From: Psococerastis gibbosa
Taxonomy: Eukaryota > Arthropoda > Insecta > Psocodea > Psocidae
Length of the DNA: 64,000 nt
Assembly: GCA_963971405.1 (NCBI GenBank)
Contig: OZ020488.1
Coordinates: 26,183,089 to 26,247,088 of the forward strand
Direction of reading: 5' to 3'
In this document: one piece after another, positions 7,066 through 45,420 of the stretch
Layout of the letters: each line of letters starts with the position of its first letter
Position numbering within the stretch: position 1 is the first letter of the stretch
Notes under the pieces: generated by a model
What the model was told of the DNA's origin: nothing
Seen by the model: the letters and a program-made list of their open reading frames with translations, nothing else
Database searches by the model: none
Program-made: the position numbers and the translations under genes

Positions 7066-7141
7066 TTATTACATACGATTAATTTTTCATTAAAAAATAT
7101 AAATAAATAAAATACGTATGGCATAAGATAATGCATACTAA

Positions 7142-21484: not shown

Positions 21485-21485
21485 G

Positions 21486-23498: not shown

Positions 23499-23700
23499 GA
23501 CTTTTTGTTGTTTCTATTTGTAGGCCAACCTAGCGGAGTTAGGGCTGTAAAGCCTTCTCTTACACTCAACTAGGAAGGCCTGGGACCGCCTGCTTTACAT
23601 GCCCTCCGAAGCATGGCCAGAAAATATAGCCAGTGTGGGACTCGAACCAACAACCCTTCGGGTGAAATTCAGAGTCTGTACCACTACGATACATGTCCTG
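23499..23700 (-). repeat. tRNA-derived SINE, family A
   Basis: On the minus strand it reads A-box-like TATCGTAGTGGTACAGAC, B box GTTGGTTCGAGTCCC (23636-23650), a body with GGCTATATTTTCTGGCC, and a tail with AACAACAAAAAG. This is the best-preserved copy. A T-rich/ATAA microsatellite borders its tail. Confidence 0.7.
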
Positions 23701-24182
23701 TTTCTGTATGAATTCGTTATTAATAATAACTTAATGATTTAATTAGCTTACAGGGAGCGAAAAGGGTGAGTAATACTGAGGATTTCGATGAAGGTGGGTC
23801 ACTAAATCAGTAAAACTAACAGCAGTTAGTCAGTTCACGGTGAATTAGGCTGACGAGCTGTAACGAATTTATGACTATGCCCAATCACATATGCTGCGAT
23901 ATTTTCCAGAAAATGCAATTAAGTACCACCTGTTTTCCAAATGCTATTTTAAATTCAGCTCATTAAATAATTCAAATTGTTATGCATTGTAAATTTATTT
24001 GGATGAATATAAAAAAAAAAATTGTGCTTAACTAAAGCAGGAGGGCGAAAGGAAAACAATAAAAAAATAATAGGAAACTTCTAATTAACCTTCCCTTAGC
24101 TCCTTAAGCGTTTTAAAATCGAGCCACAAAGATTCAACCTTCAATATATCGCAAAAAAGGATAGTTGAAATGGCATGTCATG

Positions 24183-24525
24183 CAATGAGGTTCATTTGTC
24201 ACGTCATTTTGAAGATGGCAGCACCAGTTGCACTGATATCAAAGCGTTGATTTTTCCATAAGCCTCAATACTATTTTAAAATTATTTTATTTATGTATTA
24301 TTTTAAGGTGATATTTTTCTATAAATCATGGAGAATATATATATTAAATTATATGCAGCAAAATAAGGTCCAGACATAGTAAAAATGTTATAAAAAATAT
24401 TAAATGAATTAATTAGATGCTAAGAGCTTAGCTGTCACATGCAAACGGCGGCCATTTTGAATATAATGGATATCGGTTTGTCGTCAGCGAACCTAGTGAC
24501 CAAAACTGTCCCTACAGACCCTCAT
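24183..24525. mobile_element. MITE with CAATGAGGTTC ends, second copy
   Basis: About 343 bp and highly similar to 20226-20560. The right end is GACCCTCAT, so its inverted repeat is less perfect. Confidence 0.65.
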
Positions 24526-24580
24526 AGAGGCATATAAACATAATAGTCTCCTTAGTAACTTTGTAAAACTTGCTATCACT

Positions 24581-24758
24581 CATTGTTAAAATTAACTTTG
24601 AATAGTTTTACGAATAAAATAAAATTAAAAATTCACAACCGGTTTCGGCTCACGCCATCGTCAAGTGACACAATGGCACTTGACGATGGCGTGAGCCGAA
24701 ACCGGTTGTGAATTTTTAATTTTATTCGTAAAACTATACAAAGTTAATTTTAACAATG
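24581..24758. repeat. 178-bp near-perfect palindrome (foldback MITE)
   Basis: The left arm (24581-24667) and right arm (24677-24758) are inverted copies around a 9-bp loop, differing by a 5-bp indel and about one substitution. The core motif ACCGGTTTCGGCTC plus GACGATGG-type sequence is a widely dispersed foldback motif in insect genomes as far as I recall. Confidence 0.8.
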
Positions 24759-24784
24759 AATGACTCATATAGGCAGGTCACGAA

Positions 24785-26209
24785 ATTCACCTTGTATGGG
24801 TACCAGCACATTCAGGGATAGAAGGAAATGAAACAGCAGACAGACTGGCAAAAACTGCAAGAATAGAGGGAGAAGAAACCCAGGAACCACCAACCTGGAA
24901 TGACATCGCAGGAAAACACCCAAAGAACATTAAAAGAACCGGTCCGAGTTCACTCGAACATGCTTTCCAATTTATCAAAATTATTAGATAGAGAAAATTA
25001 GTAATTTTATGGCAAATATTTTTCCTATGGTTAAATTTCCGATATCTCGGGGGGGGGGGGGGGGGGGCGGTTGTCCACCTGACGTCACTGGAAGTGAGGT
25101 AAATTCTCGATAGGTCAAACAAACACATTAATTACCACACAGCAATAATGGCAGGGCATGCAATGCATTTGAGCGCGAATTTTCTATCATTTTTTTCAAA
25201 AAATAATTTTTTGGGCAAAACCAAATATTTTTTTGGAAAAGCAACCTATCCGGTTTCGTTACTCAATTTAACACCTAAAACATGCTTGAAGGTAGAAATC
25301 ATCGATAGAAAGGTTTCGCATTTTTTAGTCATTTTTTCATTAAAATTTAGTTATTTTTATTTTTTTACCCCCAGAAGCAAACTATCAAGGGGCAAGCGAC
25401 CCCCCGCATTTTGTCAACATTAATAACGACTACAATCTACGAGAATTTAAAAGAAATCGTTGGAGCCGTTTTTGAGAAATAATTTTTTTAGACGTTTTTT
25501 GGAGTTTTTTGAAAATAAAACCCCCCCAAATTGAGTTAGCCCAAAAAAAAAAAAAATGGTCCCGAGGTATGATTTTTGTGAACCTACATGCCAAATTTCA
25601 CTCAAATCCACTGAGTAGTTTGCCCGGAAATCGACGAACAGACAGACCGACAGACCGACCGACAGACAGACATTTTGTAAAAACCACTTTTTTGGGTTCC
25701 TGGGACCTCAAAACGTGTAAATCCGTTGAAATCTCGGAATCGAAAATTTCGACCATCACAAAGCTTTCCTTATACTACGTATAAATTGGAAAGCAATAAA
25801 CTGGCAGAGAAGGTGGGACGCATACCGAACCACTACCCTAAAGGCCATACAACCTAACATCCCAAAATGACCTTGGTACTGGAAAAACCCTCTCACGAGC
25901 AGGGTCCAAACCAAGGCCATACATAAGACTGCGGCTAGGTCACGCCTCCTTCCCATGCCATCTGGCACGGATCGGTGTTCGAGAGTCTCCTCTCTGTGAG
26001 TGTGGAGATCAGGACGGCACTCCGGACCACATAACTTTTGAGTGCCCCCTATACAGCCGGGAGAGGACAAAGCTAATTATCGTAGCAGGTTGCAGGACCA
26101 GGGGAAGTTGCCGCCATTCACATACAATATGGATGTGCTCCAGGACTTGGATAGAGAGGTGTTGACGGAGGTGGTCCGCTTCCTGGAGGGTATCGGACAA
26201 AAGTGGTAG
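24785..26209 (+). pseudogene. I/Jockey-group retrotransposon ORF2 3' fragment, interrupted
   Basis: From 24785 the reading frame gives the RNase H C-terminal motif (VWVPAHSGIEGNETADRLAK). It is then broken at about 24934 by an 860-bp repeat and resumes near 25798 (NWQRRWDAY). After a stop and a frameshift it continues as RLGHASFPCHLARIGVRES, then a zinc motif (CECGDQDGTPDHITFEC) and a C-terminus ending at TAG 26207-26209. It is therefore a 5'-truncated, frameshifted and split remnant. It belongs to a different lineage from the intact fragment at 49806-51723. Confidence 0.8.
24934..25797 (+). repeat. 860-bp interspersed repeat inserted in a retroelement
   Basis: Homologous, in inverse orientation, to 49545-49805 plus 51724-52314. 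Features are TGCTTTCCAATTTAT (24961-24975), perfectly inverted at 25781-25795; a long G-run near 25050; and a (GACA)n-type stretch with ACAGACAGACCGACAG near 25640-25670. Homology to the other copy extends 27 bp left of the inverted repeat, so those repeats may be subterminal. No coding function is evident. Confidence 0.65.
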
Positions 26210-27115
26210 GACGTGGGGCAAACTGTTTTAGACGGTCCCTGGGCAACCTCGTTGTCCAGTGAGCTCCCGATAGCAGTCTTTTGCCAGATGGATTTGGTAT
26301 TGGATGTAAAAAAACTAATTAACCTATACTGTAATAGCTAATATAGTGGCAAAGCGGTTTTAGTCTACTTGATAATAATTGAAAATGAAATGGCTTTAAC
26401 CAGCCAAAACAGATTTCCGTTATCACTTCGCCAACGTCAAATAAACCCAAGTAAAACAAAGTCAGACTCAGAAGTCAGAAATAACCATAGTAAGTCAAAC
26501 TCAAAAGAAGTTAATATGGTTAATAAGCATATGGCGTTGGATACTTATTAACTATATTTAACGAGAAATGAATATAATATTGTATTTGCTGCAATGTGTT
26601 ACCAAAGCTAGGAATTTGAAAAGGAATATTCTGCGGGATATTCAAATCCACCACAGTACATTTATCATATTCAACGCAGACTAGCAGCAGTGAAACGTTG
26701 GATTAAAGGGTAAAAACAGTAGATGAAGCTCGTATATCCCACCATAATGATCCGAAAAACAAATCATGACGGGGGAATCTCATTGCGCATTCGCAATTCT
26801 TATTCAGATGCAAATGATTCCAAAACACGGCAGTCTTTACACAGCCACCGTACTAATATATTATGCATAGCTATTGCGCATTTAGCAGTCATAGCGTGAC
26901 AATCAATTTTACTTACAATATAAACAGGTCTTCCCATTTATTGTACGTAAATACCACCCGTCTGTTGCACTTTATTACAATTTAAATTCATTTTGTTTGC
27001 ATACTGATGCTAAACTTGGATTTCCAATGACTTTCTAAATCATGGTGACCCATATCCAATAGTTCAACCGATCTTCAAGAGGCCATAGTATCTAGATTTT
27101 GAGATTTCAGGAGGT
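26210..27115. other. noncoding
   Basis: No gene or recognised repeat. Confidence 0.4.
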
Positions 27116-27232
27116 CCCAGAACAGAAATTAGTGGATATAGAAAAACTGGGCTTGGCGAGAATCGAACCCACGATCTACGTCTAACCGGCTCGAATCCCG
27201 CCAAGCCCAGTTTTTCCATATCCTCTAATTTC
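27116..27232. repeat. two tRNA-derived SINE ends in inverted orientation
   Basis: The left arm contains the antisense B box (CGAGAATCGAACCC) and the right arm the sense form (GGCTCGAATCCCGCC). Both are flanked by mirrored AAAAACTGGGCTTGGCG and GGATAT sequences and AAATTAG ends. The arrangement makes a strong foldback of about 110 bp. The same B box and tail occur at 81-150. Confidence 0.6.
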
Positions 27233-27289
27233 GGTTATTACCTGGAGGTTACCTCTTCAACCAAAGTTAATTTAATGTCAGTTTTATAT

Positions 27290-27480
27290 ACACCATATAT
27301 AATACTGCAATATAAGGCCCCAGGACCCCAAAAAAGTGTTTTTTACGAAAGGTCTGTCTGTCCGTCTGTCACAGAGAAGATTGAGTCTCTCATTTTTCAT
27401 AATTTGACCCAACGGCAAAAAATTATCTATCTACAACCCTATAGACATGTTACAAGCATCGAAGTAACTTGAATAAAAAT
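27290..27480 (+). repeat. GTCTGTCTGTC-containing interspersed repeat
   Basis: Contains CCAGGACCCCAAAAAAGTG, then TTTTTACGAAA and GTCTGTCTGTCCGTCTGTC. These are similar to the microsatellite part of the 860-bp repeat (inverse orientation at 49620-49690), but the flanks differ, so it is a related family or a diverged copy. Confidence 0.4.
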
Positions 27481-28576
27481 TACAAATCGTTGGATTTAGC
27501 GTTCAGTCAGGGGTGAACGAAGGATACATACTGTATATGACCTCAGGGTTAACATGCAATCAGGGTCAATGGGGCAGTTGCAAGTGAGGGCCGAAAATTC
27601 GCCCAAATGGGAAATAAAGACTATTTTCTTTCTTTCAGTTATAATTTATTAATTTTTTTAATTAATTTCTGTCCCATATTGTTGCAGTTTGATGTTCAGT
27701 CGCTGCCTTTTTTTCACTTTTGGCAATGAAAGTTTGGTGGGAAAGGTCAGAATCAAATTCAGCACCCCCAAAAACTTAATAAAAAAAAAATCGAGGAAAA
27801 CAGAACTTCCCGTGTTAAAAATATAAAGTCACTGGATTACAGAGGCGGATTATATCGGATACGGATATCACTGGATTATATAGATAACGTTAGGTGCAGA
27901 CGGTTTCCCGTTAAATTTCTGTCACTGCAAAATATATATTTTTTTCAGTTTTAAGCAAAATATGTACTGGGATGGCAGTTTTGAAGTTAATAATATGCAA
28001 TAGACCAGTAGAAAACATGTTTTTATCCAAAAAACAACACAAGCCAATTTTATTAAGTCACAACGTATGGAAACAAAAACATTAATTTTCCACAACATTC
28101 CTCCTGCAGATAAATTGCAGAAGTTCCGCACAACAACTTCAATAATGGTGCTTTTTTTTATGCTCCCCCAGCAACGCTGATGGCGGAAACAAAATACAAC
28201 CACTTATACCGTGCTTTTAATTAATTTAATCAGACACGATCATACGAATTTAATTTCAGGAAATAGGAGTTGCCAGCAGTGCAATACACATGAGGGATTA
28301 GAGACGGATGAGGCGAGATAAAAGCGTACGGAAATGATGCCGGGTTTTTGTATGGGGAATATAGGAAAATGAATAACGACAGGATGATTTCAATAATTGC
28401 ATGATGTGGTCTGTCAATAGCATGCGGTTTGTTCATGTAAACTTCTATAGCCTGCGGATGATAACCTTATTTGGTTAGTCCATTACCATAACCAATAGGA
28501 TTACGTTTTTTGCGTGAGGAAAGACAAAATAATGACATTTTAAAATACGAGTAATTTATGACCATCAGAGAAGGAA
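27481..28576. other. noncoding
   Basis: No gene recognised. Open frames on the minus strand (27922-28436) lack any feature. Confidence 0.35.
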
Positions 28577-29010
28577 TTACACGAAAAACACCGTAGGACA
28601 CTGGCGTCTAACACAAAGCACAGCGCACGATATCTTCTTCTCTAGTCGCAATCTATCGATTGGTTTGCAGTAAGTTTTTCCATCTTCTCCATTTTTGCGT
28701 TCCAAGCAGGTTCTGCATCTCATATCGTTCACTTTCCATGGTCGGTCCTTGGCATTCGTGCCCTCAATGGTGTCTTCTAGGACTGCTCCCTGTCTGACCA
28801 TCCACATGGCTCTTCTTACGGATATGAGGGTATCCTTCGTTTATCCTTTGTAGTACCTCTTCGTTTGTTTTGATATCCATGATATTTCTACCATTCTCCT
28901 ATTGCACCACATTCCAAAGGCTTCCAATTTCTTGTCTTTTCCGTAAATGACTCGCAGCCATAAAGCAGTATGCTCCAAACTTCTGTATAACCACGATATA
29001 ATTACAAAGG
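28577..29010 (-). pseudogene. degenerate non-LTR reverse-transcriptase fragment
   Basis: Read on the minus strand, 29000 to about 28845 gives a frame containing KKLEAFGMWCNRRMVEISW. This matches the conserved region just after the RT thumb of a common arthropod non-LTR group (…LEAFEMWCYRRM… type). Farther 3' the sequence gives DTIEGTNAKDRPWK and a C-terminal basic stretch, in other frames. Multiple frameshifts make it a pseudogene. The 3' end resembles 3370-3440. Confidence 0.65.
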
Positions 29011-30300
29011 CTTTCACGGTCGGAGTTACGTGACGAAGCAGTAGAGTCCGGGATGATAGGCCTTGGTCGTTCTGAAAGCGTACTTCCAAACGTTTCGTCA
29101 ACATCTGCGGTCGACCTCTTCAGTGGAACTGCGTGGACTTCTAAAATTGTACCTCAGAGGCTCAGCAGCAACTGTGACCATAAGCGAGTTTAATTTTAGA
29201 CTAGACTTAATAATATTGTGAATCATGTACTGTTCGCCCAGAAAAGTTTGCAAATGCACAATAGAATATCCCGTAATGCCTTCCCAAGTCCCGCCTCTCC
29301 ATGTAAATTCCCTGTGCTGCATTTTCAAATCAGATAGTACTACTTTGCATGTGTTTGTATACACAAAACTTATGGGGGTGCCATTCCAAATTTAATGCAC
29401 TAAGGTCACAAGTGGACATTGCTTATTTATTTGTTTGTTGCCCTTTTTACAAATTCAAGACTCCAATGTCAAAATTAAAATTTTCTGAATGTTAGTTAAT
29501 TGTCTTATAATATGAACTAACAATATACAAAGTTTCACCCCAAAGATTATTATTTTAAATTATATTTAAAAGGTTTTATTCAGCTAAAAATGTGGTTCGT
29601 TTGTTCTATTGCACTGTATAGTATATTGTATAATGCACAGTGACTCCATTGAAAGACCAAAATTCAGGAAAGAATTTTTAAGCGCCGGTTCAGCAATGGA
29701 TATGCGTATACATACATTGTTAAAATTTCTGGCAGTTATAGCTTAATCAAATGGGGACCTGAATTTCCCAGAAGACATCGTGTCTGATTTTCCCTCTACC
29801 TGTTTCTACCCCTCCTCCACCGCGTGAGTCTCCTGCCCGTAAGTTTCCATCCTGCTTCAGCTCCCTGAGATTCTGACGCAGTGCCCCATTATCAAAATCT
29901 TTGTTGAAAATGTTCCCCTGGGACACTGAGCGTCTTCCACAGGCATGCTATGGCAATTAGTTTCATATTAGTGTAGTGAGGCATTACTTTTTTAAATTAT
30001 TAGAAACTAGTGGACCCGAGGAAATTCGTATCACCTACTACCCCATTTTGTTTGTTTACTTTTTGACGTTCAATGTCGAAGTTATTTGAATTTAATTTAT
30101 ATTTATTATATATTTACTTTTTTGGTCCAGGAACCTTTGGGAGTGCCCCCAGAACTACTAAAGATTCATAAGCGGTTTCAGCACGCGTCGAATAAAAAAA
30201 AAATAGAAGTCATTTTTACTTACTTTATACTATAGAACTGCAGATATACAAGTACTGTACTGTTCGCACAGAAAAGTTTGCAAATGCAGAATAGAATATC
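29011..30300. other. noncoding, arms of a compound repeat
   Basis: Includes the first copies of the direct repeat (29227-29506) and inverted-repeat arm (29507-30136) that are seen complete at 45421-47495. It ends at AATATC, immediately before the Maverick-like element. Confidence 0.6.
30295..30300. other. probable target site (AATATC) of the Maverick-like insertion
   Basis: AATATC precedes the element at 30301. In the uninterrupted copy the same AATATC (46489-46494) is followed by CCGTAATG. Maverick/Polinton elements duplicate 6 bp at insertion. The right-hand duplicate cannot be checked because the right end is not in the window. Confidence 0.55.
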
Positions 30301-30714
30301 AGTAGAGTAGAAAGGGGGTTTCTGGCGCTTATCCCACCCCCCGTCGTGCTATCCCATCTATCCCCCGCGGGTGGTCTATCTATTTTTGTGTGTTACCCCT
30401 CGTGGGTGGTCTGAGGTTCTGGCACCATGATCGTTTTTTTTTTTATAATTACTAATTTGTGAGATACAGAGTTATTTTTTTTTATTTTTTTATTTTTTTT
30501 TTTTTTTTTTATTTATTTATTTTTTTTTTTATTTTTTTTTTAATGGTGTTAATTGAATTAAAACATTTCTTTCTTCTTCTTTCTTCTTCGTGGGTGGTCT
30601 TTGTACCCCGCCGTGCTTATCCCGTTGTCTATCTATCTCTGTACCAGGTGGGTGGTCTATGACGCACCCCCCCCCCCTCCCCGTACAGCCAGACATCTAG
30701 AAGGTTCTAAATGT
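30301..30714 (+). repeat. left terminal region with repeated GTGGGTGGTC motif and T tract
   Basis: Motif copies are at 30367-30377 (GCGGGTGGTCT), 30401-30412, 30589-30600 and 30647-30658. A fifth lies upstream of the polymerase cassette at 31894-31905. They alternate with pyrimidine-rich TATCC/CTATCTATC stretches. A T-dominated tract spans 30474-30541 and a C-run is at about 30666-30677. This could be the terminal inverted repeat, but its partner is not in the window. Confidence 0.6.
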
Positions 30715-30822
30715 GTCGTTACAAAAGGCATCACCTTGGGTTGAGGAGCTTAGTTGAAGCCAAACCTTCATTCAAGACTCAAGTAATACCACTTTATACG
30801 TAAAATTGTATAATCTTACAAC
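30715..30822 (+). promoter_or_regulatory. shared upstream cassette, copy A (small gene)
   Basis: ACAAAAGGCATCACCTTGGG, TTGAGGAGCTTAGTTGAAGC, ACCTTCATTC, GTAATACCACTTTA and AATTGTATAATC run directly into the ATG at 30823. The same ordered blocks precede the polymerase ATG at 32008. Conservation between two otherwise unrelated genes suggests a common promoter and 5' leader. TATAATC and TGTGTAATC are aligned AT-rich elements about 10-20 bp before the start codons. Confidence 0.7.
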
Positions 30823-31128
30823 ATGACATCTCTATTCAATAAAGTTAATGCTATCAACCAAGTAGCCGGGCCTACCATACCAATGCGAAAGCTAGTGATT
30901 GGAGTTAAATACCTAATATTGAAAATAGTGCAAATCGAAAAAACAGAATATGGACCAGCTGTAAAAGTCATACTGCGAGGATTGGAAAAAGAAGTCGTGG
31001 AATGTTTTGTGCCTCAACAATATCTGCCAGCCTTTCAACAAAGTGAAGTTACTCCAGGAGCTGAGATGTATCTTATCGTTTCAAGCCATCGGGGAAAAAA
31101 TAGTGTCAACCTACAGATCATAGAATGA
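30823..31128 (+). CDS. 101-aa protein of a Maverick-like element, possible OB-fold/ssDNA-binding type
   Basis: An intact 101-codon frame from ATG to TGA, starting immediately after the shared cassette. The protein has a short N-terminal segment (MTSLFNKVNAINQV), a PTIPMRKL motif at about residues 17-24, and alternating hydrophobic strands (YLILKIVQIEKTEYG, AVKVILRG, VECFVPQQYL, MYLIVSS, VNLQIIE) as in a small beta-barrel. There are no cysteines suited to zinc binding and no membrane segment. My recollection is that similar small proteins sit beside DNA polymerase genes in arthropod elements of this type. A role in single-strand DNA binding during replication is an inference from the fold-like pattern and location, not shown by a motif. 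The intact frame and dedicated promoter argue that it is functional. Confidence 0.7.
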   Translation: MTSLFNKVNAINQVAGPTIPMRKLVIGVKYLILKIVQIEKTEYGPAVKVILRGLEKEVVECFVPQQYLPAFQQSEVTPGAEMYLIVSSHRGKNSVNLQIIE

Positions 31129-31402
31129 ATATTTCATGATGTATTATTATTGTAAACTACAGAAATAATGTAAATATATGAATAATTTCTATATATATTT
31201 TTGTTCTTGTTTTATTAATTGCATAATTAGTTTTAAGCTTATAGTTAGATGATGATGAGTATTAAAAACTAATGGTTGAAAGAAACAAGCTATTGCTTCA
31301 GTCATAATCGAGTACTTGAACGGTGAAGGGTTATTTTAATCATAGACTATGAAATGATGTAAATCAAATAATTAAACGAGTACATTAGCTAATTAATTTT
31401 AA
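31129..31402. other. intergenic, AT-rich 3' flank of the small gene
   Basis: No canonical AATAAA was seen immediately after the stop. The segment holds AT-rich sequence before the tandem repeat. Confidence 0.4.
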
Positions 31403-31791
31403 TAAATCTATCCGAAGCATATGTTTATGGGAAGTATTGATTTGGTAAACAAATAACAGAGTGCAGGTTCAAACCTGTTGTGAATCACCAGGTGCATATA
31501 ACTCTGTACAGTCGTCTAATGGTTCAAACAAACAAGCCATTAATAAATCTACCCCTCGCTGACAGTCCATTGTAAGCTAAAGTGATTTTTGTTTTCGTAA
31601 ATCTATCCAACACTTAGGTTGAAGGGAAGTATTGATTTGGCAAACAAATAACAGAGTGCAGGTTCAAACCTGTTGTGAATCACCAGGTGCATATAACTCT
31701 GTACAGCCGTCTAATGGTTCAAACAAACAAGCCATTAATAAATCTACCCCTCGCTGACAGTCCATTGTAAGCTAAAGTGATTTTTGTTTTT
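31403..31791. repeat. two 195-bp tandem units with a compact foldback
   Basis: Units 31403-31597 and 31598-31791 are nearly identical except for about 15 bases near the start of each. Each contains a 52-nt foldback (31456-31507, 31651-31702). Its outer 7-bp stem is ACAGAGT/ACTCTGT, with an inner hairpin CAGGTTCAAACCTG and a second small hairpin CACCAGGTG. GGTTCAAACC resembles a polymerase III B box or T-arm, but there is no anticodon arm, so this is not called a tRNA. Position between the two genes suggests an origin, regulatory or structural role (inference). Confidence 0.75.
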
Positions 31792-31861
31792 GCATTAGTT
31801 GCAATCGATCGTTAGAAAATGAATGGTGTCTTAACAACATATTATCCGCTTCGTGATGGAC

Positions 31862-32007
31862 AATCTATCCCTGTACCCTTACCATCTATCCTTCGTGGGT
31901 GGTCGTCGCTACAAAAGGCATCGCCTTGGGTTGAGGAGCTTAGTTGAAACCGAACCTTCATTCGCGTAATACCACTTCAGTGTAGTGAATTTGTGTAATC
32001 GTACAGC
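31862..32007 (+). promoter_or_regulatory. shared upstream cassette, copy B (polymerase gene)
   Basis: Starts with CTATCC-CTGTACC and the CGTGGGTGGTC motif (31894-31905). It continues TACAAAAGGCATCGCCTTGG, TTGAGGAGCTTAGTTGAAAC, ACCTTCATTC, GTAATACCACTTCA and TGTGTAATC, reaching the ATG at 32008. It differs from copy A (30715-30822) mainly by a 9-bp deletion after ACCTTCATTC and scattered substitutions. Confidence 0.7.
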
Positions 32008-35000
32008 ATGGAATCGAAGAAAAGGAAACTGAACGCGAGGGAATATGTGTGTAGAATATGTGCTGTGAGTTTCACACTAAATTGCAATTTAAAAAGACAT
32101 GTCATAAACAAACATGGAGTTAGTATTATACCATGCAAAAAATGTAAAGCCACATTCACATGCAGAGAGGACCTATCTCATCATATATTGCAGCGGCATA
32201 CATCAGCAAATCACGGGATGGAAATTGTACAAACTCGCCCAAAACTGACATCTGCTGGGAATGGAGAGGACTGCAAGGCATGCGGGGGCAAAATCAACAA
32301 CTCCAGTCCACTTACAGTTCTGTGTAAAGAATGTTCATCTATCTTTTCGTGTAAGTATGAGAATCCTGTATCTGTTAAAACCCTTGAGTGTAAATATATT
32401 TGTGAATTCTGTTCGGTCCCTTTTGCTCGGAAGTATAGTTTGAAAGTCCACATATTAAGCATACATATTATTAATTGTTTGAATTGCAAGAAATTGTTTA
32501 TGAGGGAAGATTTTACTAATCATAAGAATAATTGCACAATTATGAGCGGGGGAGCACTATCCAACGAGGAGAACTTTTTATGCAAAACATCTATAGCTCT
32601 AGATGGTGTAGTAAAACAATACAATTATAAAAACATAACCATACATGATCCCGTTGTATATTTAAATAATATGGAAGGTGAGGTTGATTCTATTACAACT
32701 GAAAACATTAAACTTTTTAATGCAATTAAATGGTATGTAGCCTTACACATTAAATTTGAACGCGGACCCGACAATAATAAAAACTATACTGAAGCATGGT
32801 TTCATGCTAAAAACGAACAACTTTTCCTCACTGATGACTCCACAATAAAATATCAACAAATGATTGAACAAATTTTAGTAAAAATAGATAAATTTCAAGC
32901 AATGGGAAGCGGGTGGGTGTTGAAATCTTTAAAACATTTTGTTATTTTTATTGCTGAATATAATCCATGCAGTGGTAGTAGTTACATCCCTTTACCCAAA
33001 AAAATCTATAACACTAAAGCAGTAATCAATATTAAAAATGACGATCTCAAATGTTTTATATGGTCAATTTTAGCATACTTACATCCAGTAAGTCGGGATG
33101 CTCAGCGGGTTTATAATTATAAAAAGTATGAAAAAGAGTTAGATATGAAAGGTATAACTTACCCAGTATCTTTGCAAGTCATTTCAAAATTTGAAAAAAA
33201 TAATAATATTGGAGTAAATGTGTTTGGTTATGATCACAGACTGTACCCATTATATTTATCACAAAGTCACCATTATAATAAGCAGGTGGATCTGCTTTAC
33301 ATAACGGAAGACGAAAATTCACATTATTGTCTTATTAAAAATTTCAACAAACTTAATTTCTCAATCACTAAACATAAGGAACAAAAGTTTTATTGTCGTT
33401 GGTGCATACACGCCTTTAGTAGTGCTGAACGCTTACATGAACATAAGCCACTCTGCTCAAGACATGATCCTCAAAAAACCACATTTCCAATTCAGGAGAA
33501 AAGCACTATGAAATTTGATAAGGCACAATATATGATCCCTGTAGCATATAGAATATATGCCGATTTCGAGAGCATTCTCAGTCCCGTTGAAGGGACTATT
33601 TGTAACACTGAAAAATTATCTGCACATATACCATCAGGGTTTTGTTATGTTGTTGTAGATATCAATGGGAATAAGTTTAAAGAACCGGTAGTTTACAGGG
33701 GAGCTAATGCTGTTGATGTGTTTTTGAAATCGTTATTAAATGTTAAGGATGAAATTTTAAACATTTATAAAAATATTAAAGCAGTAATTATGACTGACGA
33801 GGATAGAGAAAATTTTAAAAACTCTGTCATTTGTAATGTTTGTCAAAAACCACTAGGAAATGATCGTGTAATAGACCACTGTCATATAACGGGGAAATAT
33901 AGACAAGCATTACATAATGTTTGTAATATGAGCAATTTTCGAACTCCAAAACATATCCCCGTTTTTATGCATAACTTAAAACGTTATGATGGTCATCTTA
34001 TCATGGAAGGGGTTGGGAAACTAAAAAATATGAAAATTACTTGTATAGCTAAAACTATGGAGGAATATATAGCCTTTAGTATTGGAGAGTTACGCTTTTT
34101 AGACACTTATCAATTTATGGCCTCCTCTTTAGATTCATTAGTCAAAAATCTTGTTGATGCGGATAAAAATAAATTTAAAATTATGAAAACATGTTTTGTG
34201 GGTGAAAAATTAGACTTGATGTTGAGGAAGGGTGTCTTCCCCTATGAATATATAACGCACGAATCAAAATTTAATGAGGAACACTTACCTCCAATTGATG
34301 CATTTTTTAGTCAATTAACTCAAGAGGGGATTTCACAAGAAAAATATGAACATGCTCAAAAGGTGTGGAATGCTTTTAGTATAAAGAATTTAGGAGAATA
34401 CCAAGACTTGTATGTATTAACAGACACCCTTCTCCTTTGCGATGTTTTTGAAGCCTTTAGAGCCTTATGTTTTGAAAACGATAACCTCGAAATTTGTCAC
34501 ATGTACACAGCACCAGGGCTAGCTCTTCAGAGCTGTCTGAAAATGACAGGAGTAGAACTTGAGCTATTGAGCGAACCTGATATGTATTTGTTTTGTGAGG
34601 CTGGGATTCGCGGGGGTATAAGTATGATTTCAAAAAGATTTGCGGAAAGCAACAATAAATACTTAAAAAAATTTGACTCAAATAAGCCATCCAAATTTAT
34701 AGTATATTGGGATTGCACTAACTTATACGGACATGCGATGCGTCAATTTTTACCTATTAGTGGGTTTCGCTGGATGGAGGAGGAAGAAATCAAAAACTTT
34801 AATGTAATGCTCGCACCTGATGAGGGCGATGATGGGTTCATATTACAGGTGGACATGGAATATCCACAAAAATTACATGATTTACATAATGAATACCCAC
34901 TAGCAGCTGAACATTGTGTTGTAACATCAGACATGATTTCCCCCTATTGTAAGGAATTTCTCGCTGAAAATGATATATCTTTAACATCCAACTTCTCAAA

Positions 35001-35988
35001 GCTTATTCCCAACTTAAACGATAAACACAACTATATAATACATTATCGAAATTTGAAGCAATGTTTAGAATTGGGATTAAAATTAAAATGTATACATAAA
35101 ATTTTAGCTTTTAAGCAAAGCGCTTGGATGCGACCCTTTATCGATTTTAACACAGAAAAACGGAAATTAGCTTGTAATGATTTCGAGAAGGATTTTTATA
35201 AATTGAAAATTAATAGTATGTATGGGAAGACAATGGAGAATGTTAGAAATCACGCAAAATTAGAGTTAGTTAACACTGCCAAACGAGCTCGTAAACTTAT
35301 CTCATCCCCTGCATTTAAAGATTTTAAGATTTTTTCAAACGATTTAATAGCAGTCCGGTCAAAAAAAACTAATATTTTGCTAAACAAGCCAATATTTATT
35401 GGCCTAACCGTTCTCGAACTATCCAAGGTAGTTATGTATGAATTTCATTATAACTTTGTAAAACAAATGTATGGTGATAAAGCTGCACTGATTTTAACAG
35501 ATACAGATTCGCTCGTTTATGAGGTTGAGAGTGATGATTTGTACACTGATTTAAAACCATATCCCCATTTATTTGATAACTCAGTATATCCTCCGAACCA
35601 TCTCTTATACAATATTGAAAATAAAAAGAAAGTGGGAACGTTCAAAGATGAAAATGCTCAATCTCACATTTTACAATGTGTTGCTTTACGCCCAAAATTG
35701 TATTCCCTTTTAGAGGAGGGAAAGGAGAAGAAAGTGGGCAAAGGTATAGTTCGTTCAACCCTTAAACATCATATTAACCATCAAGACTATTACAATACCT
35801 TATTTAAGCCTTGCATAGCAAAAGACTCACGTAAACCAATGTTCCGTATTCAAAGTAGAGATCATAAGCTTTTTACAATTAAACAGCAAAAAGTCACTCT
35901 TAGTCCTTATGATGATAAACGGTATGTGTGTCGTAATGGAATTGATAGTTTAGCTCATGGTCATTATCGCATTATAGATATGTCTTAG
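32008..35988 (+). CDS. zinc-finger protein-primed-type family B DNA polymerase
   Basis: A 1326-aa DNA polymerase of the organellar/viral family B type that would replicate the element. The N-terminus has zinc-binding modules: C2H2 at 15-36, 43-64 and 132-153, a four-Cys module at 89-109, and C2HC-like modules at 157-176 and 463-483. Residues about 340-460 form a conserved region with C349 (KCFIWSILA) and H439 (HYCLIKN). Exonuclease motifs are DFE (D519, E521), N656…D661 and Y802xxxD806. A Cys/His insert (C609, C612, DHCH 623-626, C639, N640) resembles an endonuclease VII-type zinc site. Polymerase motifs are D902xxNLYG, K1065xxxNSMYG and TDTDS (1164-1168), then KLY (1230-1232). All are intact and no stop or intron interrupts them. 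The start ATG follows the shared cassette. Absence of other Maverick genes nearby may be due to the gap. Confidence 0.93.
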   Translation: MESKKRKLNAREYVCRICAVSFTLNCNLKRHVINKHGVSIIPCKKCKATFTCREDLSHHILQRHTSANHGMEIVQTRPKLTSAGNGEDCKACGGKINNSSPLTVLCKECSSIFSCKYENPVSVKTLECKYICEFCSVPFARKYSLKVHILSIHIINCLNCKKLFMREDFTNHKNNCTIMSGGALSNEENFLCKTSIALDGVVKQYNYKNITIHDPVVYLNNMEGEVDSITTENIKLFNAIKWYVALHIKFERGPDNNKNYTEAWFHAKNEQLFLTDDSTIKYQQMIEQILVKIDKFQAMGSGWVLKSLKHFVIFIAEYNPCSGSSYIPLPKKIYNTKAVINIKNDDLKCFIWSILAYLHPVSRDAQRVYNYKKYEKELDMKGITYPVSLQVISKFEKNNNIGVNVFGYDHRLYPLYLSQSHHYNKQVDLLYITEDENSHYCLIKNFNKLNFSITKHKEQKFYCRWCIHAFSSAERLHEHKPLCSRHDPQKTTFPIQEKSTMKFDKAQYMIPVAYRIYADFESILSPVEGTICNTEKLSAHIPSGFCYVVVDINGNKFKEPVVYRGANAVDVFLKSLLNVKDEILNIYKNIKAVIMTDEDRENFKNSVICNVCQKPLGNDRVIDHCHITGKYRQALHNVCNMSNFRTPKHIPVFMHNLKRYDGHLIMEGVGKLKNMKITCIAKTMEEYIAFSIGELRFLDTYQFMASSLDSLVKNLVDADKNKFKIMKTCFVGEKLDLMLRKGVFPYEYITHESKFNEEHLPPIDAFFSQLTQEGISQEKYEHAQKVWNAFSIKNLGEYQDLYVLTDTLLLCDVFEAFRALCFENDNLEICHMYTAPGLALQSCLKMTGVELELLSEPDMYLFCEAGIRGGISMISKRFAESNNKYLKKFDSNKPSKFIVYWDCTNLYGHAMRQFLPISGFRWMEEEEIKNFNVMLAPDEGDDGFILQVDMEYPQKLHDLHNEYPLAAEHCVVTSDMISPYCKEFLAENDISLTSNFSKLIPNLNDKHNYIIHYRNLKQCLELGLKLKCIHKILAFKQSAWMRPFIDFNTEKRKLACNDFEKDFYKLKINSMYGKTMENVRNHAKLELVNTAKRARKLISSPAFKDFKIFSNDLIAVRSKKTNILLNKPIFIGLTVLELSKVVMYEFHYNFVKQMYGDKAALILTDTDSLVYEVESDDLYTDLKPYPHLFDNSVYPPNHLLYNIENKKKVGTFKDENAQSHILQCVALRPKLYSLLEEGKEKKVGKGIVRSTLKHHINHQDYYNTLFKPCIAKDSRKPMFRIQSRDHKLFTIKQQKVTLSPYDDKRYVCRNGIDSLAHGHYRIIDMS

Positions 35989-36226
35989 GTTTAAAAGTTT
36001 GTTTTAAGTGATTGTATGTAAAGACATTGATTTCTTTTAAAATATGTGTATTATAAAATTTGTATATCATAAAATGGTTTACATTCGTTTAGCTCATGGT
36101 CATTATTGTATTATAGATAAGTCTTAGGCTTAAAAGCTTGTTTTAAGTGATTGTATGAAAAGACATTGATTTCTTTTAAAATATGTGTATTATAAAATTT
36201 ATATATCATAAAATGGTTTACATTCA
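35949..36226 (+). repeat. 139-bp tandem duplication of the polymerase 3' end
   Basis: 35949-36087 covers the last 13 codons, the stop and the 3' flank. 36088-36226 is a second copy with few changes that still encodes a matching peptide end (AHGHY…) and stop. It lies outside the gene and lacks a start. Confidence 0.85.
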
Positions 36227-36547
36227 TTTACAATAGTTGATGTACAATACCAGTTAAAGGTACATATTCATATAAGCAGTCGCTGATGAGTAGACAGTCC
36301 CTTTATTTGCCATGCAGACAACCCTTTATATATTGGAGTGCATAAGGTCGGTGGCCATTTCAGTCCCCCTCGCATTAAGATTATGACACATCGCTATTAA
36401 TTCAGGTACGCCGATATAATAAGTGCACTCAGCATCTTAAAAGAAATGTATTAATCCCACAATAGGTGTTCAATATACCCACCAGCCGTGTTTATAAAAA
36501 TGAATTTTCAATAATCCCAACTAAGTCTCAGTTTCTCACAATAGGTG
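36227..36547. other. noncoding spacer
   Basis: No frame or repeat recognised between the 3' duplication and the TTAGG-rich array. Confidence 0.4.
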
Positions 36548-37479
36548 TGCAATATACCAGGCAGTCGTGTTTTCTATGTTAGATTTAGTTACATTGGGCT
36601 AGGACAGGTTAAGTTATAATATTAGGCTAGGTTAAATTTTTATATCAAGTTAGGATAGGTTACATTGGATTAGGATAGGCCAGATTAGGTTACATTGGGT
36701 TAGGTTAGCTGTTTACCTAGATTAAATTCATCATTTTTTTTTTAACAAAAATATTTTTATATCAAATAAATATGATGTTAAGTTAGGTTACATTGAATTA
36801 GGATAGGTTAGATTAGGTTACATTGGATTAGGATAGGCCAGATTACGTTACATTGGGTTAGGTTAGCTGTTTACCTAGATTAAATTCATCATTTTTTTAA
36901 CAAAAATATTTTTATATCAAATAAATATGATGTTAAGTTAGGTTACATTGAATTAGGATAGGTTAGATTAGGTTACATTGGGTGCAATATACCAGGCAGT
37001 TGTGTTTTCTATGTTAGATTTAGTTACATTGGGCTAGGACAGGTTAAGTTTTAATATTAGTCTAGGTTAAATTTTTATATCAAGTTAGGGTAGGTTACAT
37101 TGGATTAGGATAGGCCAGATTAGGTTACATTGGGTTAGGTTAGCTGTTTACCTAGATTAAATTCATCATTTCTTTTTTTAAAAAAAATATTTTTTATATC
37201 AAATAAATATAATGTTAAGTTAGGTTACATTGAATTAGGATAGGTTAGATTAGGTTACATTGGATTAGGATAGGCCAGATTAGGTTACATTGGGTTAGGT
37301 TAGCTGTTTACCTAGATTAAATTCATCATTTTTTTAACAAAAATATTTTTATATCAAATAAATATGATGTTAAGTTAGGTTACATTGAATTAGGATAGGT
37401 TAGATTAGGTTACATTGGATTAGGATAGGCCAGATTAGGTTACATTGGGTTAGGTTAGCTGTTTACCTAGATTACATTC
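36548..37479. repeat. higher-order tandem array rich in GGTTAGGTTACATTGG
   Basis: A basic unit of about 155 bp contains GATTAGGTTACATTGG, GTTAGCTGTTTACCTAGATT and a T/A-rich stretch. Unit starts are seen near 36777, 36932, 37214 and 37369. A larger unit starts with GTGCAATATACCAGGCAG at 36548 and again at 36982 (period 434). The array runs into the gap, which may be unresolved because of it. Confidence 0.8.
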
Positions 37480-37679
37480 NNNNNNNNNNNNNNNNNNNNN
37501 NNNNNNNNNNNNNNNNNNNNNNNNNNNNNNNNNNNNNNNNNNNNNNNNNNNNNNNNNNNNNNNNNNNNNNNNNNNNNNNNNNNNNNNNNNNNNNNNNNNN
37601 NNNNNNNNNNNNNNNNNNNNNNNNNNNNNNNNNNNNNNNNNNNNNNNNNNNNNNNNNNNNNNNNNNNNNNNNNNNNNNN
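37480..37679. other. assembly gap (200 N)
   Basis: Exactly 200 N, a conventional placeholder length, so its true size is unknown. It separates the TTAGG-rich array from the second copy of the 8.8-kb segment. Confidence 0.98.
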
Positions 37680-39693
37680 GTTACTAACACTTCTTCTTCC
37701 TTAGTGCCTTAGTATTACTAAAACAGTAGTTGTAAATATATGAGGTGTGCGAACTCTTCTGTCTTTGGGTTGTAGATTTAGAAGTCTATTGGTTGTAGAT
37801 AACTTGATATCTAGTTAATATTGTACAAAAGACTGGGTTTGATGAAGTACTTACTGTATTGTAATGAACAACAACCATTACGTCAACTAACATTTTTCGT
37901 GCAATGTAGCCTGTTTCATACACTTCTTCAGCCGAAAATACTTGATGTAGATTAAAGCGCCCATTTAAGTAAGCAAGTAGCACTAGTAGCAGTTGCAATA
38001 AGTCACTCTAGAGACACATAGGATGCTCTTGTGTAAACAGGGCAGTGGTCAAAAATCCACCTTGTATCGTACATAAAAACAACATAACTAATTAATGCAA
38101 CTATAAAACTAAGTCTCTTCCCCCCTGTGCAAACATGTTGAGCTCAAATCAACAAAACACATCTCCATGGGGAGACATATACCGCATGTGCGAATTACTG
38201 AACCCAATTCGCGAGAACACAACACCCATAATTTATAAAATTACACACCGAACTCATGACACTCCCACTCCACAGCAAAATGGGACAACCGGCGATTCTG
38301 AACAGTTATATCACAAAATTTAGTTCAAAAACTGGTATAAACAACAAAGAGAATGAACGAACCAGAAATGGATACTGTTGACATAAGGCTGTCGGCAGAC
38401 TCCGGGGGAGACTAAAAATAAAACTTTAAGGGTCGAATTCCATTCCAAGGCGAGTTCTCTTCCAAAAACCCAAAAAGCAGTCATGTGGACAAGATAGCAG
38501 CATCAAGTTGACATAGACCACCCCCACACTTTGAATCTCCCGCCAAAACGTTGATAAGATTTTCTATTTCCAATAAGAAATTAAGGGCGCAAAATGCTAC
38601 AAAACAGGCGGGTGGAGCTGATTGACTGCTTGATTAATTAGCTGTCAAACAGAGTGACTTAAAACGGAACTTTATAAATTGGCTCACTGAAATTATAATA
38701 AACACAAAATCGTAAACGCTCTAATAATTGCTTCGACGAAACTCTACGCCACCTCGGCCCACCCCGCCTTCATGTTTGTCGGCAGTCAAAACTTTCTTTT
38801 TTGTTCCCAAATTCAAAGACACTTAACACTAATGCACAGAGTCTCAAGTTTTTGTGAGTCATGTTTGTGCTGACCAAACTAAATATTTCTGTCGCCTGGA
38901 TGCTTCCTGATCTTGAAAAAAAAAGACAAAAACCTTTTTTTTATCAAGTCACAGCAGGCGATTGTGGAGGGGAAAAAAAGTTTAGGAAAAAATGTTTCTG
39001 TAGGAAGGGATAAAATAATGATCGGTGTGTCTCTCTAAGACGATTTGTTTTATTTTCCCATGTATTTTTAAAGAGAATAGTTCGGGTGATGCTGAGCTTG
39101 CAGACATTAAAGGCGAAATGAAAAAAGGAAACCTTGAATGTGTCATTTCACGTTTCCTGCTCTACTGGATGAAACAAGTTGCACAGGACGTCTACTAACA
39201 GCAACACTACCGCTAGGTACGAGAAATGACGACGATGGTTAAGTTAATCAATTTATTTATGCAGAAACATTATCAGCCTGGCGGTTTATGAGTTCCATAA
39301 TTCATTTTCAATCAATTTTGTGCTGCTGCTCCATCAATATTAACTTTGATTGCAATAAATGTGACATAAGAATGAATATTTATGAGGTTGCATTGTTTTT
39401 ATTTGAATTAGATTACATATTAGTCTTGAAATTCTTCAGAATTCTCCAGAAAACGGAACACGAAATGAGACTTCGTAATATGGATAACAACATACTATCT
39501 GACCAGCAATTAATACCATGAAACAAGCATGGCAGAAAATGATAAACACATTCATGGCTTTTCAAATATTTAAACTTTTGTGAGCCGTAATCGACAGTTT
39601 TAACAGAATAACCGAAATTAACAGAATAAAATAACTGAACAATCATAGTAGGTAAGCATAATACAAACAGGTTTAAATAAATAAATAAATAAG

Positions 39694-39895
39694 GACTTTT
39701 TGTTGTTTCTATTTGTAGGCCAACCTAGCGGAGTTAGGGCTGTAAAGCCTTCTCTTACACTCAACTAGGAAGGCCTGGGACCGCCTGCTTTACATGCCCT
39801 CCGAAGCATGGCCAGAAAATATAGCCAGTGTGGGACTCGAACCAACAACCCTTCGGGTGAAATTCAGAGTCTGTACCACTACGATACATGTCCTG
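39694..39895 (-). repeat. tRNA-derived SINE, family A (in duplicated segment)
   Basis: Same sequence as 23499-23700. Confidence 0.7.
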
Positions 39896-40377
39896 TTTCT
39901 GTATGAATTCGTTATTAATAATAACTTAATGATTTAATTAGCTTACAGGGAGCGAAAAGGGTGAGTAATACTGAGGATTTCGATGAAGGTGGGTCACTAA
40001 ATCAGTAAAACTAACAGCAGTTAGTCAGTTCACGGTGAATTAGGCTGACGAGCTGTAACGAATTTATGACTATGCCCAATCACATATGCTGCGATATTTT
40101 CCAGAAAATGCAATTAAGTACCACCTGTTTTCCAAATGCTATTTTAAATTCAGCTCATTAAATAATTCAAATTGTTATGCATTGTAAATTTATTTGGATG
40201 AATATAAAAAAAAAAATTGTGCTTAACTAAAGCAGGAGGGCGAAAGGAAAACAATAAAAAAATAATAGGAAACTTCTAATTAACCTTCCCTTAGCTCCTT
40301 AAGCGTTTTAAAATCGAGCCACAAAGATTCAACCTTCAATATATCGCAAAAAAGGATAGTTGAAATGGCATGTCATG

Positions 40378-40720
40378 CAATGAGGTTCATTTGTCACGTC
40401 ATTTTGAAGATGGCAGCACCAGTTGCACTGATATCAAAGCGTTGATTTTTCCATAAGCCTCAATACTATTTTAAAATTATTTTATTTATGTATTATTTTA
40501 AGGTGATATTTTTCTATAAATCATGGAGAATATATATATTAAATTATATGCAGCAAAATAAGGTCCAGACATAGTAAAAATGTTATAAAAAATATTAAAT
40601 GAATTAATTAGATGCTAAGAGCTTAGCTGTCACATGCAAACGGCGGCCATTTTGAATATAATGGATATCGGTTTGTCGTCAGCGAACCTAGTGACCAAAA
40701 CTGTCCCTACAGACCCTCAT
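40378..40720. mobile_element. MITE with CAATGAGGTTC ends (in duplicated segment)
   Basis: Same sequence as 24183-24525. Confidence 0.65.
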
Positions 40721-40775
40721 AGAGGCATATAAACATAATAGTCTCCTTAGTAACTTTGTAAAACTTGCTATCACT

Positions 40776-40953
40776 CATTGTTAAAATTAACTTTGAATAG
40801 TTTTACGAATAAAATAAAATTAAAAATTCACAACCGGTTTCGGCTCACGCCATCGTCAAGTGACACAATGGCACTTGACGATGGCGTGAGCCGAAACCGG
40901 TTGTGAATTTTTAATTTTATTCGTAAAACTATACAAAGTTAATTTTAACAATG
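40776..40953. repeat. 178-bp palindrome (in duplicated segment)
   Basis: Same sequence as 24581-24758. Confidence 0.8.
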
Positions 40954-40979
40954 AATGACTCATATAGGCAGGTCACGAA

Positions 40980-42403
40980 ATTCACCTTGTATGGGTACCA
41001 GCACATTCAGGGATAGAAGGAAATGAAACAGCAGACAGACTGGCAAAAACTGCAAGAATAGAGGGAGAAGAAACCCAGGAACCACCAACCTGGAATGACA
41101 TCGCAGGAAAACACCCAAAGAACATTAAAAGAACCGGTCCGAGTTCACTCGAACATGCTTTCCAATTTATCAAAATTATTAGATAGAGAAAATTAGTAAT
41201 TTTATGGCAAATATTTTTCCTATGGTTAAATTTCCGATATCTCGGGGGGGGGGGGGGGGGGCGGTTGTCCACCTGACGTCACTGGAAGTGAGGTAAATTC
41301 TCGATAGGTCAAACAAACACATTAATTACCACACAGCAATAATGGCAGGGCATGCAATGCATTTGAGCGCGAATTTTCTATCATTTTTTTCAAAAAATAA
41401 TTTTTTGGGCAAAACCAAATATTTTTTTGGAAAAGCAACCTATCCGGTTTCGTTACTCAATTTAACACCTAAAACATGCTTGAAGGTAGAAATCATCGAT
41501 AGAAAGGTTTCGCATTTTTTAGTCATTTTTTCATTAAAATTTAGTTATTTTTATTTTTTTACCCCCAGAAGCAAACTATCAAGGGGCAAGCGACCCCCCG
41601 CATTTTGTCAACATTAATAACGACTACAATCTACGAGAATTTAAAAGAAATCGTTGGAGCCGTTTTTGAGAAATAATTTTTTTAGACGTTTTTTGGAGTT
41701 TTTTGAAAATAAAACCCCCCCAAATTGAGTTAGCCCAAAAAAAAAAAAAATGGTCCCGAGGTATGATTTTTGTGAACCTACATGCCAAATTTCACTCAAA
41801 TCCACTGAGTAGTTTGCCCGGAAATCGACGAACAGACAGACCGACAGACCGACCGACAGACAGACATTTTGTAAAAACCACTTTTTTGGGTTCCTGGGAC
41901 CTCAAAACGTGTAAATCCGTTGAAATCTCGGAATCGAAAATTTCGACCATCACAAAGCTTTCCTTATACTACGTATAAATTGGAAAGCAATAAACTGGCA
42001 GAGAAGGTGGGACGCATACCGAACCACTACCCTAAAGGCCATACAACCTAACATCCCAAAATGACCTTGGTACTGGAAAAACCCTCTCACGAGCAGGGTC
42101 CAAACCAAGGCCATACATAAGACTGCGGCTAGGTCACGCCTCCTTCCCATGCCATCTGGCACGGATCGGTGTTCGAGAGTCTCCTCTCTGTGAGTGTGGA
42201 GATCAGGACGGCACTCCGGACCACATAACTTTTGAGTGCCCCCTATACAGCCGGGAGAGGACAAAGCTAATTATCGTAGCAGGTTGCAGGACCAGGGGAA
42301 GTTGCCGCCATTCACATACAATATGGATGTGCTCCAGGACTTGGATAGAGAGGTGTTGACGGAGGTGGTCCGCTTCCTGGAGGGTATCGGACAAAAGTGG
42401 TAG
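40980..42403 (+). pseudogene. I/Jockey-group ORF2 fragment split by an 860-bp repeat (duplicate copy)
   Basis: Same sequence as 24785-26209, with the same stop, frameshift and inserted repeat (41129-41991). The G-run near 41245-41262 is one base shorter. Confidence 0.8.
41129..41991 (+). repeat. 860-bp interspersed repeat (duplicate copy)
   Basis: Same as 24934-25797 apart from the homopolymer. Confidence 0.65.
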
Positions 42404-43309
42404 GACGTGGGGCAAACTGTTTTAGACGGTCCCTGGGCAACCTCGTTGTCCAGTGAGCTCCCGATAGCAGTCTTTTGCCAGATGGATTTGGTATTGGATG
42501 TAAAAAAACTAATTAACCTATACTGTAATAGCTAATATAGTGGCAAAGCGGTTTTAGTCTACTTGATAATAATTGAAAATGAAATGGCTTTAACCAGCCA
42601 AAACAGATTTCCGTTATCACTTCGCCAACGTCAAATAAACCCAAGTAAAACAAAGTCAGACTCAGAAGTCAGAAATAACCATAGTAAGTCAAACTCAAAA
42701 GAAGTTAATATGGTTAATAAGCATATGGCGTTGGATACTTATTAACTATATTTAACGAGAAATGAATATAATATTGTATTTGCTGCAATGTGTTACCAAA
42801 GCTAGGAATTTGAAAAGGAATATTCTGCGGGATATTCAAATCCACCACAGTACATTTATCATATTCAACGCAGACTAGCAGCAGTGAAACGTTGGATTAA
42901 AGGGTAAAAACAGTAGATGAAGCTCGTATATCCCACCATAATGATCCGAAAAACAAATCATGACGGGGGAATCTCATTGCGCATTCGCAATTCTTATTCA
43001 GATGCAAATGATTCCAAAACACGGCAGTCTTTACACAGCCACCGTACTAATATATTATGCATAGCTATTGCGCATTTAGCAGTCATAGCGTGACAATCAA
43101 TTTTACTTACAATATAAACAGGTCTTCCCATTTATTGTACGTAAATACCACCCGTCTGTTGCACTTTATTACAATTTAAATTCATTTTGTTTGCATACTG
43201 ATGCTAAACTTGGATTTCCAATGACTTTCTAAATCATGGTGACCCATATCCAATAGTTCAACCGATCTTCAAGAGGCCATAGTATCTAGATTTTGAGATT
43301 TCAGGAGGT

Positions 43310-43426
43310 CCCAGAACAGAAATTAGTGGATATAGAAAAACTGGGCTTGGCGAGAATCGAACCCACGATCTACGTCTAACCGGCTCGAATCCCGCCAAGC
43401 CCAGTTTTTCCATATCCTCTAATTTC
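43310..43426. repeat. inverted pair of SINE ends (duplicate copy)
   Basis: Same as 27116-27232. Confidence 0.6.
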
Positions 43427-45204: not shown

Positions 45205-45420
45205 CTTTCACGGTCGGAGTTACGTGACGAAGCAGTAGAGTCCGGGATGATAGGCCTTGGTCGTTCTGAAAGCGTACTTCCAAACGTTTCGTCAACATCT
45301 GCGGTCGACCTCTTCAGTGGAACTGCGTGGACTTCTAAAATTGTACCTCAGAGGCTCAGCAGCAACTGTGACCATAAGCGAGTTTAATTTTAGACTAGAC
45401 TTAATAATATTGTGAATCAT

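Follow-up and report, generated by a model that had tools for sequence, protein, structure and literature searches.

A palindromic Maverick-type element with a polymerase gene in each arm in the genome of Psococerastis gibbosa

The window locus and the genes of the arm

A stretch of 64,000 nucleotides from the insect Psococerastis gibbosa (assembly GCA_963971405.1, contig OZ020488.1, positions 26,183,089 to 26,247,088 of the forward strand), hereafter the window, contains a Maverick/Polinton-like element which an earlier note had described as having an intact polymerase and an exact left junction. Comparison with other copies in the genome identified the element in the window as the left arm of a palindrome (Table 1). 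The complete element is approximately 14.6 kb, a near-perfect palindrome of two inverted 7.3-kb arms, each with an identical gene pair consisting of a 101-residue open reading frame (ORF) and a zinc-finger family-B DNA polymerase (PolB) of 1326 residues.

The left edge of the element, at 30300|30301, was placed by comparison with an empty copy of the site, ...AATAGAATATC|CCGTAATG at 46494|46495, and the element starts with AGTAGAGTAG. The junction claimed in the earlier note was therefore borne out, and so was the polymerase, with a reading frame that is open throughout and exonuclease and polymerase motifs that are present. Beyond the gap the host sequence resumes 8.8 kb upstream, and the doubled host segment is most simply read as overlapping contigs of the two alleles that were joined over the 200-N gap; it may instead be a true tandem duplication, in which case the boundary would come out identical. 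The concern that host DNA had been joined by error beyond the gap was thus justified for the scaffold but not for the element itself, which is real since 399 places in the 409-Mb genome surveyed match its first 25 bases at two mismatches or fewer and none match the reversed control. Because the right end lies outside the window, this copy's target duplication is not readable. Around the empty site, the host DNA contains inverted repeat arms of 632 bp (45701-46332 and 46864-47495, also 29507-30138) which are 99.4% identical and spaced by ~530 bp. A further host repeat (29226-29506 and 46450-46750, 89.7%) takes in the target site, and AATATCCCG was found at 29265, 45459 and 46489.

PolB carries the exonuclease motifs Exo I-III, the polymerase motifs Pol A, B and C, and three C2H2-like fingers at residues 15, 43 and 132. 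An EndoVII-like zinc site at residues 609-632 gave values of 1.1e-06 with PHROG and 0.00017 with Pfam, the latter just under the cut-off. The pair Cys349/His439, invariant in a three-row alignment (A1), fits the vOTU-like protease domain (D2) described for eukaryotic pPolBs in PMC11071308, and may be the catalytic pair of such a domain. The Pfam model DNA_pol_B_2 (PF03175) gave no score on the window PolB; a second PolB type in the genome, which does score with PF03175, is 35% identical to it over 1050 residues. Judged by its sequence, the window protein belongs to the protein-primed family-B polymerases, with priming predicted. A sequence search of the Protein Data Bank with PolB returned 56 matches, all to the zinc-finger region and none to a polymerase. 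When searched by tblastn against phages, PolB matched 30 records; the 10 among the matches listed were short, covering 2-5% of the query, and six of these lay under genes annotated as endonuclease VII. Scans of viral contigs with PolB, the 101-residue protein, alignment A1 and the capsid protein of the presumed parent element described below yielded no relatives. For the 101-residue protein, a role in single-strand binding through an OB fold is possible, the predicted model being too weak to rely on.

Only two ORFs of at least 100 residues were present per intact arm examined, with no third, and no integrase, capsid, packaging ATPase or protease gene was found in the arms read. The sequence GTGGGTGGTC occurs four times in the arm (30402-30411, 30590-30599, 30648-30657 and 31895-31904), always on the same strand, and is absent from the rest of the window; these copies are possible finger-binding sites near the origin end. 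The tail, 1.3 kb in length, is composed of repeats resembling the TTAGG telomere unit of insects; its sequence is absent from the parent pieces read and from the rest of the window, and telomere-like DNA captured from the host is a candidate source. TTAGG-like repeats, together with a DUF4817 match in a neighbouring mobile element of the genome, point weakly to an arthropod host. Arrays with periods of 30, 155 and 437 bp are present in the centre of another copy.

Table 1. Coordinates of the features discussed; positions are those of the window unless a contig is named.
Feature	Position	Strand	Remarks
Host segment, assembled two times	21485-30300 and 37680-46494	+	One filled, other empty; 99.989% over 8816 bp
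Left arm of palindromic element, to gap	30301..37479	+	Element positions 1-7179 of ~7295 per arm
Terminus AGTAGAGTAGAAAGGGGGTTTCTGG	30301..30325	+	201 forward and 198 reverse places in genome at two mismatches or fewer; control 0
59-bp block ahead of each ORF	30715..30773; second copy 31905-31963	+	93% identity
101-residue ORF	30823..31128	+	Open throughout; possible OB-fold single-strand-binding protein (weak)
Tandem unit of ~199 bp, two copies	31397..31790	+	94.5% identity
PolB, protein-primed type, 1326 residues	32008..35988	+	Open throughout
Tail, TTAGG-like tandem repeats running to palindrome centre	36299..37479	+	Absent from parent pieces read
Scaffold gap, 200 N	37480..37679		~115 bp short of expected palindrome centre
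Empty copy of site, AATATC|CCGTAA	46489..46500	+	Read at 46494|46495
Presumed parent Maverick, 14.3 kb	C2:34419564-34433849		Duplication AAGGGG on both sides; both 25-base ends exact

The palindrome and its target duplications across the genome

Five right-half pieces of other copies, when reverse-complemented, all matched the window arm: three over the full 7.18 kb at ~99.8%, one over 6.96 kb to a gap, and the fifth over 5.3 kb before turning at position 5295. Two of five left pieces (L030 and L031) run past the centre, and both turn back after the gap. Four of five centres fetched (L039, L040, L042 and L043) are free of gaps; L040 is a gap-free palindrome with 99.97% identity over 3341 bp, centred ~115 bp beyond the end of the window arm. 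The identical motif GGTTAAGTTAGC-N-GCTAACTTAACC is common to the four, its one central base being C or G. This 25-bp motif was detected at 80 places (control 0), and in the 50 places listed the central base on the plus strand was G in 26 and C in 24, a split that insertion of one molecule in both orientations would produce. Among ten further central regions, all from duplication-bearing copies, eight turn back, six of them across a gap; the gap-free turns are in L096 and in L103, which has one arm cut to 971 bp. The other two (L101 and L104) hold different sequence. In twelve left ends without a listed partner, sampled ~6.8 kb inward, the sequence stops at a gap at the tail in six cases, turns back in two and matches PolB patchily in one; the remaining three contain no window-element sequence, two of them (L048 and L050) being of parent type. 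No gap-free junction of the tail to host DNA was seen in the pieces sampled. Inserted copies of 8.3-13.8 kb, shorter than 14.6 kb, also exist. A broken relative of PolB, with ~94-95% DNA identity in the matching parts, is present in L104 (C15:34483400-34485200) and L049 (C3:38953650-38955350), the former between window-type ends with a 6-bp duplication.

The earlier note had advised looking for an inverted copy of the first several hundred bases; an inverted repeat does exist in the family, its extent being the whole element. The kinship with Mavericks that the note drew from the AGT start and 6-bp duplications is likewise upheld at the level of the family, the duplication of the window copy itself being unreadable. 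One hundred ends were listed, all perfect matches, with ends bearing one or two mismatches counted only. The listing contained 22 adjacent plus/minus pairs, 8.3-17.8 kb apart, and flanks were compared for these and three more. An exact 6-bp target duplication was found in 15 of the 25 end pairs, the presumed parent included, and no pair had an exact flank match at any other length tested (3-11). In a control with mismatched pairs, 1 of 600 matched, that one between elements 60 kb apart. The ends read AGTAGAG...CTCTACT, with one base changed in one of the first ten pairs; end motifs of vertebrate Mavericks are given for comparison in PMC8097293.

Words of 30 bases, counted genome-wide at two mismatches or fewer, were found at 191 (PolB), 88 (capsid), 87 (integrase) and 241 (tail) places. 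Element classes were separated with exact words on contigs C1, C2, C3, C12 and C13, where the exact-match listings are complete. The 88 exact PolB words divide into 56 that lead to the tail, 25 that lead to the capsid word and seven that lead to neither, with none leading to both. The PolB-to-tail spacing is exactly 2230 bp in 53 of the 56, and the PolB-to-capsid spacing exactly 2827 bp in 24 of the 25. PolB words paired within 12 kb on the five contigs were facing in 21 cases and diverging in none, with the tail on both partners in 15 pairs and on one partner in five. The last pair is an apparent hybrid (C13:28019492-28030294, PolB words at C13:28023363 and C13:28030265) in which a parent-type left arm with the capsid word faces a palindrome-type arm. 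Of the 48 capsid words that the five contigs hold, 23 lacked an exact PolB word at the expected distance.

A Maverick with the same ends and a capsid gene

The left piece of the Maverick on C2 corresponds to window element positions 1-5998 at 99.5% identity, followed by an abrupt switch at 5998. The terminal inverted repeat (TIR) on its right side and its left end are 97.5% identical over ~1.4 kb. Two proteins are encoded in the middle of this copy (L101), one a capsid protein of double-jelly-roll type (PF21738, 1.5e-71) and the other, of 236 residues, with no match in Pfam. An integrase word with one mismatch is located at C2:34430398; the distance between it and the capsid word, 4198 bp, is the same in the C2 and C12 copies. 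The right half was read only in the C12 copy (L107), where a PLA2-domain protein (5.7e-14), an A32-like ATPase (4.5e-9), an rve integrase (1.4e-10) and a probable protease (Peptidase_C5 at 0.0047, under the cut-off) were identified. Thus integrase and capsid genes, which the earlier note had suggested seeking in an extension of the window element, are absent from the arms read and are found in a separate Maverick with the same ends. The C12 copy departs from the TIR sequence on the right and is not intact there as far as read, and the end regions of the parent-type copies at C12 and C3 differ partly from those of the window. The PolB genes of parent and window differ by 11 nucleotides and five residues (99.7% identical), and the 101-residue ORF by none of 306 nucleotides.

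A second, full-size Maverick at C1:5835613-5852323 (L092, L093 and L094) has TIRs of ~248 bp, the target-site duplication GGCTTT and AGTAG...CTACT ends. It encodes a PolB of 1404 residues and an integrase with a weak chromodomain match, and gave a sub-threshold ATPase match, with a protease in the sister copy L091. As a parent it was dropped, since its PolB is 35% identical to that of the window (measured on a sister copy) and no arm DNA is shared beyond short low-complexity sequence. The 114-residue ORF beside its PolB weakly resembles the 101-residue ORF (blastp E 0.023).

Origin, replication and spread of the palindrome

The results are most probably explained if the window feature is an arm of a non-autonomous Maverick derivative that is palindromic, of the "snap-back" kind, and integrated by the integrase of the parent. 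The 14.3-kb Maverick would have lost the half encoding capsid, ATPase, protease and integrase, and this would have been replaced by an inverted replication half (origin end, 101-residue protein and PolB) together with the 1.3-kb repeat tail, the outcome being a mirror-image molecule with two identical origins. Because the parent has the canonical gene set, we infer that the palindrome descended from it and not the reverse. PolB would start by protein priming at either end; strand-displacement, protein-primed replication from both ends is expected because of the polymerase class, in keeping with PMC11071308 and with general knowledge. The displaced strand, self-complementary from end to end, would fold to a 7.3-kb hairpin with a complete origin, and copying round the loop would give a new palindrome with no need of a partner strand. 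Since their ends and the 6-bp duplication are common to both elements, the integrase is presumed to act in trans, inserting the linear product through the shared ends with 6-bp duplications. The element would then be a snap-back defective genome turned germline transposon. Packaging in particles of the parent is speculative; the lengths of 14.6 and 14.3 kb fit, and the shorter copies do not demand it. It is possible, though doubtful, that the palindrome is a polintovirus satellite which replicates through the hairpin, uses both the integrase and the particles of the parent, and interferes with the parent while spreading in the germline. If so, it would to our knowledge be the first transposon whose whole body is an inverted repeat and which carries its own polymerase twice.

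An artefact of sequencing or assembly, with inverted chimeric reads or contigs making a palindrome of a one-armed element, would account for the 200-N gap near the centre of many copies and for the 8.8 kb of host sequence repeated across the gap of the window scaffold. It would also mirror the flanks, however, whereas the flanks differ and, in 15 of 25 pairs, share exactly the 6 bp of the duplication, and six centres (L039, L040, L042, L043, L096 and L103) are free of gaps, with C or G as the central base; the artefact is thus highly unlikely. Shortened or unequal arms are common (L035, L102 and L103), which would agree with inverted arms that form separately in every copy, upon or following its insertion, through fold-back copying or chromosomal recombination. 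This is very unlikely given that the duplications flank the whole palindrome and that the full centres seen share one 25-bp motif, from which it follows that the palindrome is inherited as a unit.

The two ORFs of the arm, the EndoVII-like zinc site and the high copy number would also suit an independent two-gene lineage that integrates by means of PolB, the EndoVII-like domain or a host enzyme without the integrase of a parent. Yet 6-bp duplications and AGTAG...CTACT ends also occur on integrase-bearing elements of the same genome, and the 11 nucleotides separating the two PolB genes tie the element closely to the parent, making independence unlikely. The earlier note had left a choice between the left end of a full virus-like element and a reduced two-gene lineage. 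For the former, with the right half of a full-length Maverick hidden in the gap, there is the near-identity with the parent over the first 5998 bp; but in the window copy PolB is followed by the tail from 36299 on, and a tail word accompanies 0 of the 25 capsid-joined PolB words, results that make it extremely unlikely. The reduced two-gene alternative fits.

Several observations weigh against a palindromic derivative mobilized by its parent. The right arm of the window copy is itself unassembled, and the origin of the tail is left unexplained. Ten of the 25 end pairs lack the 6-bp duplication, one of them with a right flank of N; mis-scaffolding or rearrangement is the likely, unproved, cause. 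Two elements at C13:1808693-1883951, with outer ends 75 kb apart, have no duplication of their own, and the left flank of the first (CATTAG) equals the right flank of the second, a pattern that suggests recombination or a misjoin. While 36 of the 56 tail-type PolB words are in facing pairs, 20 have no exact-word partner facing within 12 kb. Contigs C1-C19 hold 75 of the 87 integrase sites, and at least nine of the 75 have a listed perfect window-type end no more than 13 kb away. Both ends were verified for one parent copy only, and the parental gene set derives partly from a copy with a right end that is not intact. The AlphaFold2 (AF2) model of PolB residues 215-1326 with the three-row alignment failed, with a predicted local distance difference test (pLDDT) score of 28, and single-sequence AF2 of the 101-residue protein gave the order H-E-E-E-H-E-E in a weak model with a pLDDT of 47.

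The element spread recently, since the copies compared are near-identical and two sites were assembled both filled and empty. Seven of eight PolB genes compared, that of the window included, are identical over 3981 bp and the eighth has one synonymous change; the best 35 PolB protein matches scored were all identical and without stops. The second site is C13:11323606, where 1011 bp of the sequence after the gap are 100% identical to host DNA upstream and the empty site was seen in L095. Four of six gap cases were tested; only C13:11323606 had a host repeat, the other three having none within 9.3-9.7 kb.

Symmetric recombinants of adenovirus are snap-back defective genomes of linear protein-primed viruses, with capsid genes lost and dependence on a helper. 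The palindrome likewise has one genome end duplicated in inverted form and the other lost, no capsid genes and, presumably, a reliance on a complete relative; it differs in that the polymerase gene is kept and that the form is integrated and amplified in the genome. As in Mavericks/Polintons, the element family has a protein-primed-type PolB, inverted repeats with AG(T) ends and 6-bp duplications, and the presumed parent, also in this genome, carries genes for integrase, ATPase and capsid; unlike them, the inverted repeat is the entire element, with two genes present twice, and the window-type arms lack the integrase, capsid, ATPase and protease of autonomous Mavericks. Very long, internally repetitive inverted repeats are also a feature of Foldback/Galileo elements (PMC3573991). 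Autonomous copies of those elements have a P-element superfamily transposase, in contrast to the PolB arms and 6-bp duplications here. Bidnaviridae, as presented in PMC4061559, resemble the element in having a Polinton-derived PolB and inverted terminal repeats, but as viruses have helicase and capsid genes, none of which were found in the arms. Literature searches found no palindromic Maverick derivative. The structure is unusual and well supported, and it most probably represents a non-autonomous variant of Maverick and not a new autonomous family.

The palindrome is a mirror-image transposon that has been amplified in nature and shares the genome with its presumed parent. Such palindromes may also account for assembly breaks and false duplications like that of the window. 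To judge by what the arms contain, the minimum that a Maverick has to retain in cis would be the end sequences, PolB and one small protein. The element also offers a way to ask, from sequence, whether Mavericks continue to form particles and to replicate as linear DNA by protein priming, a question that, given the near-identical copies and the sites both filled and empty, can be put to living animals and not to fossils.

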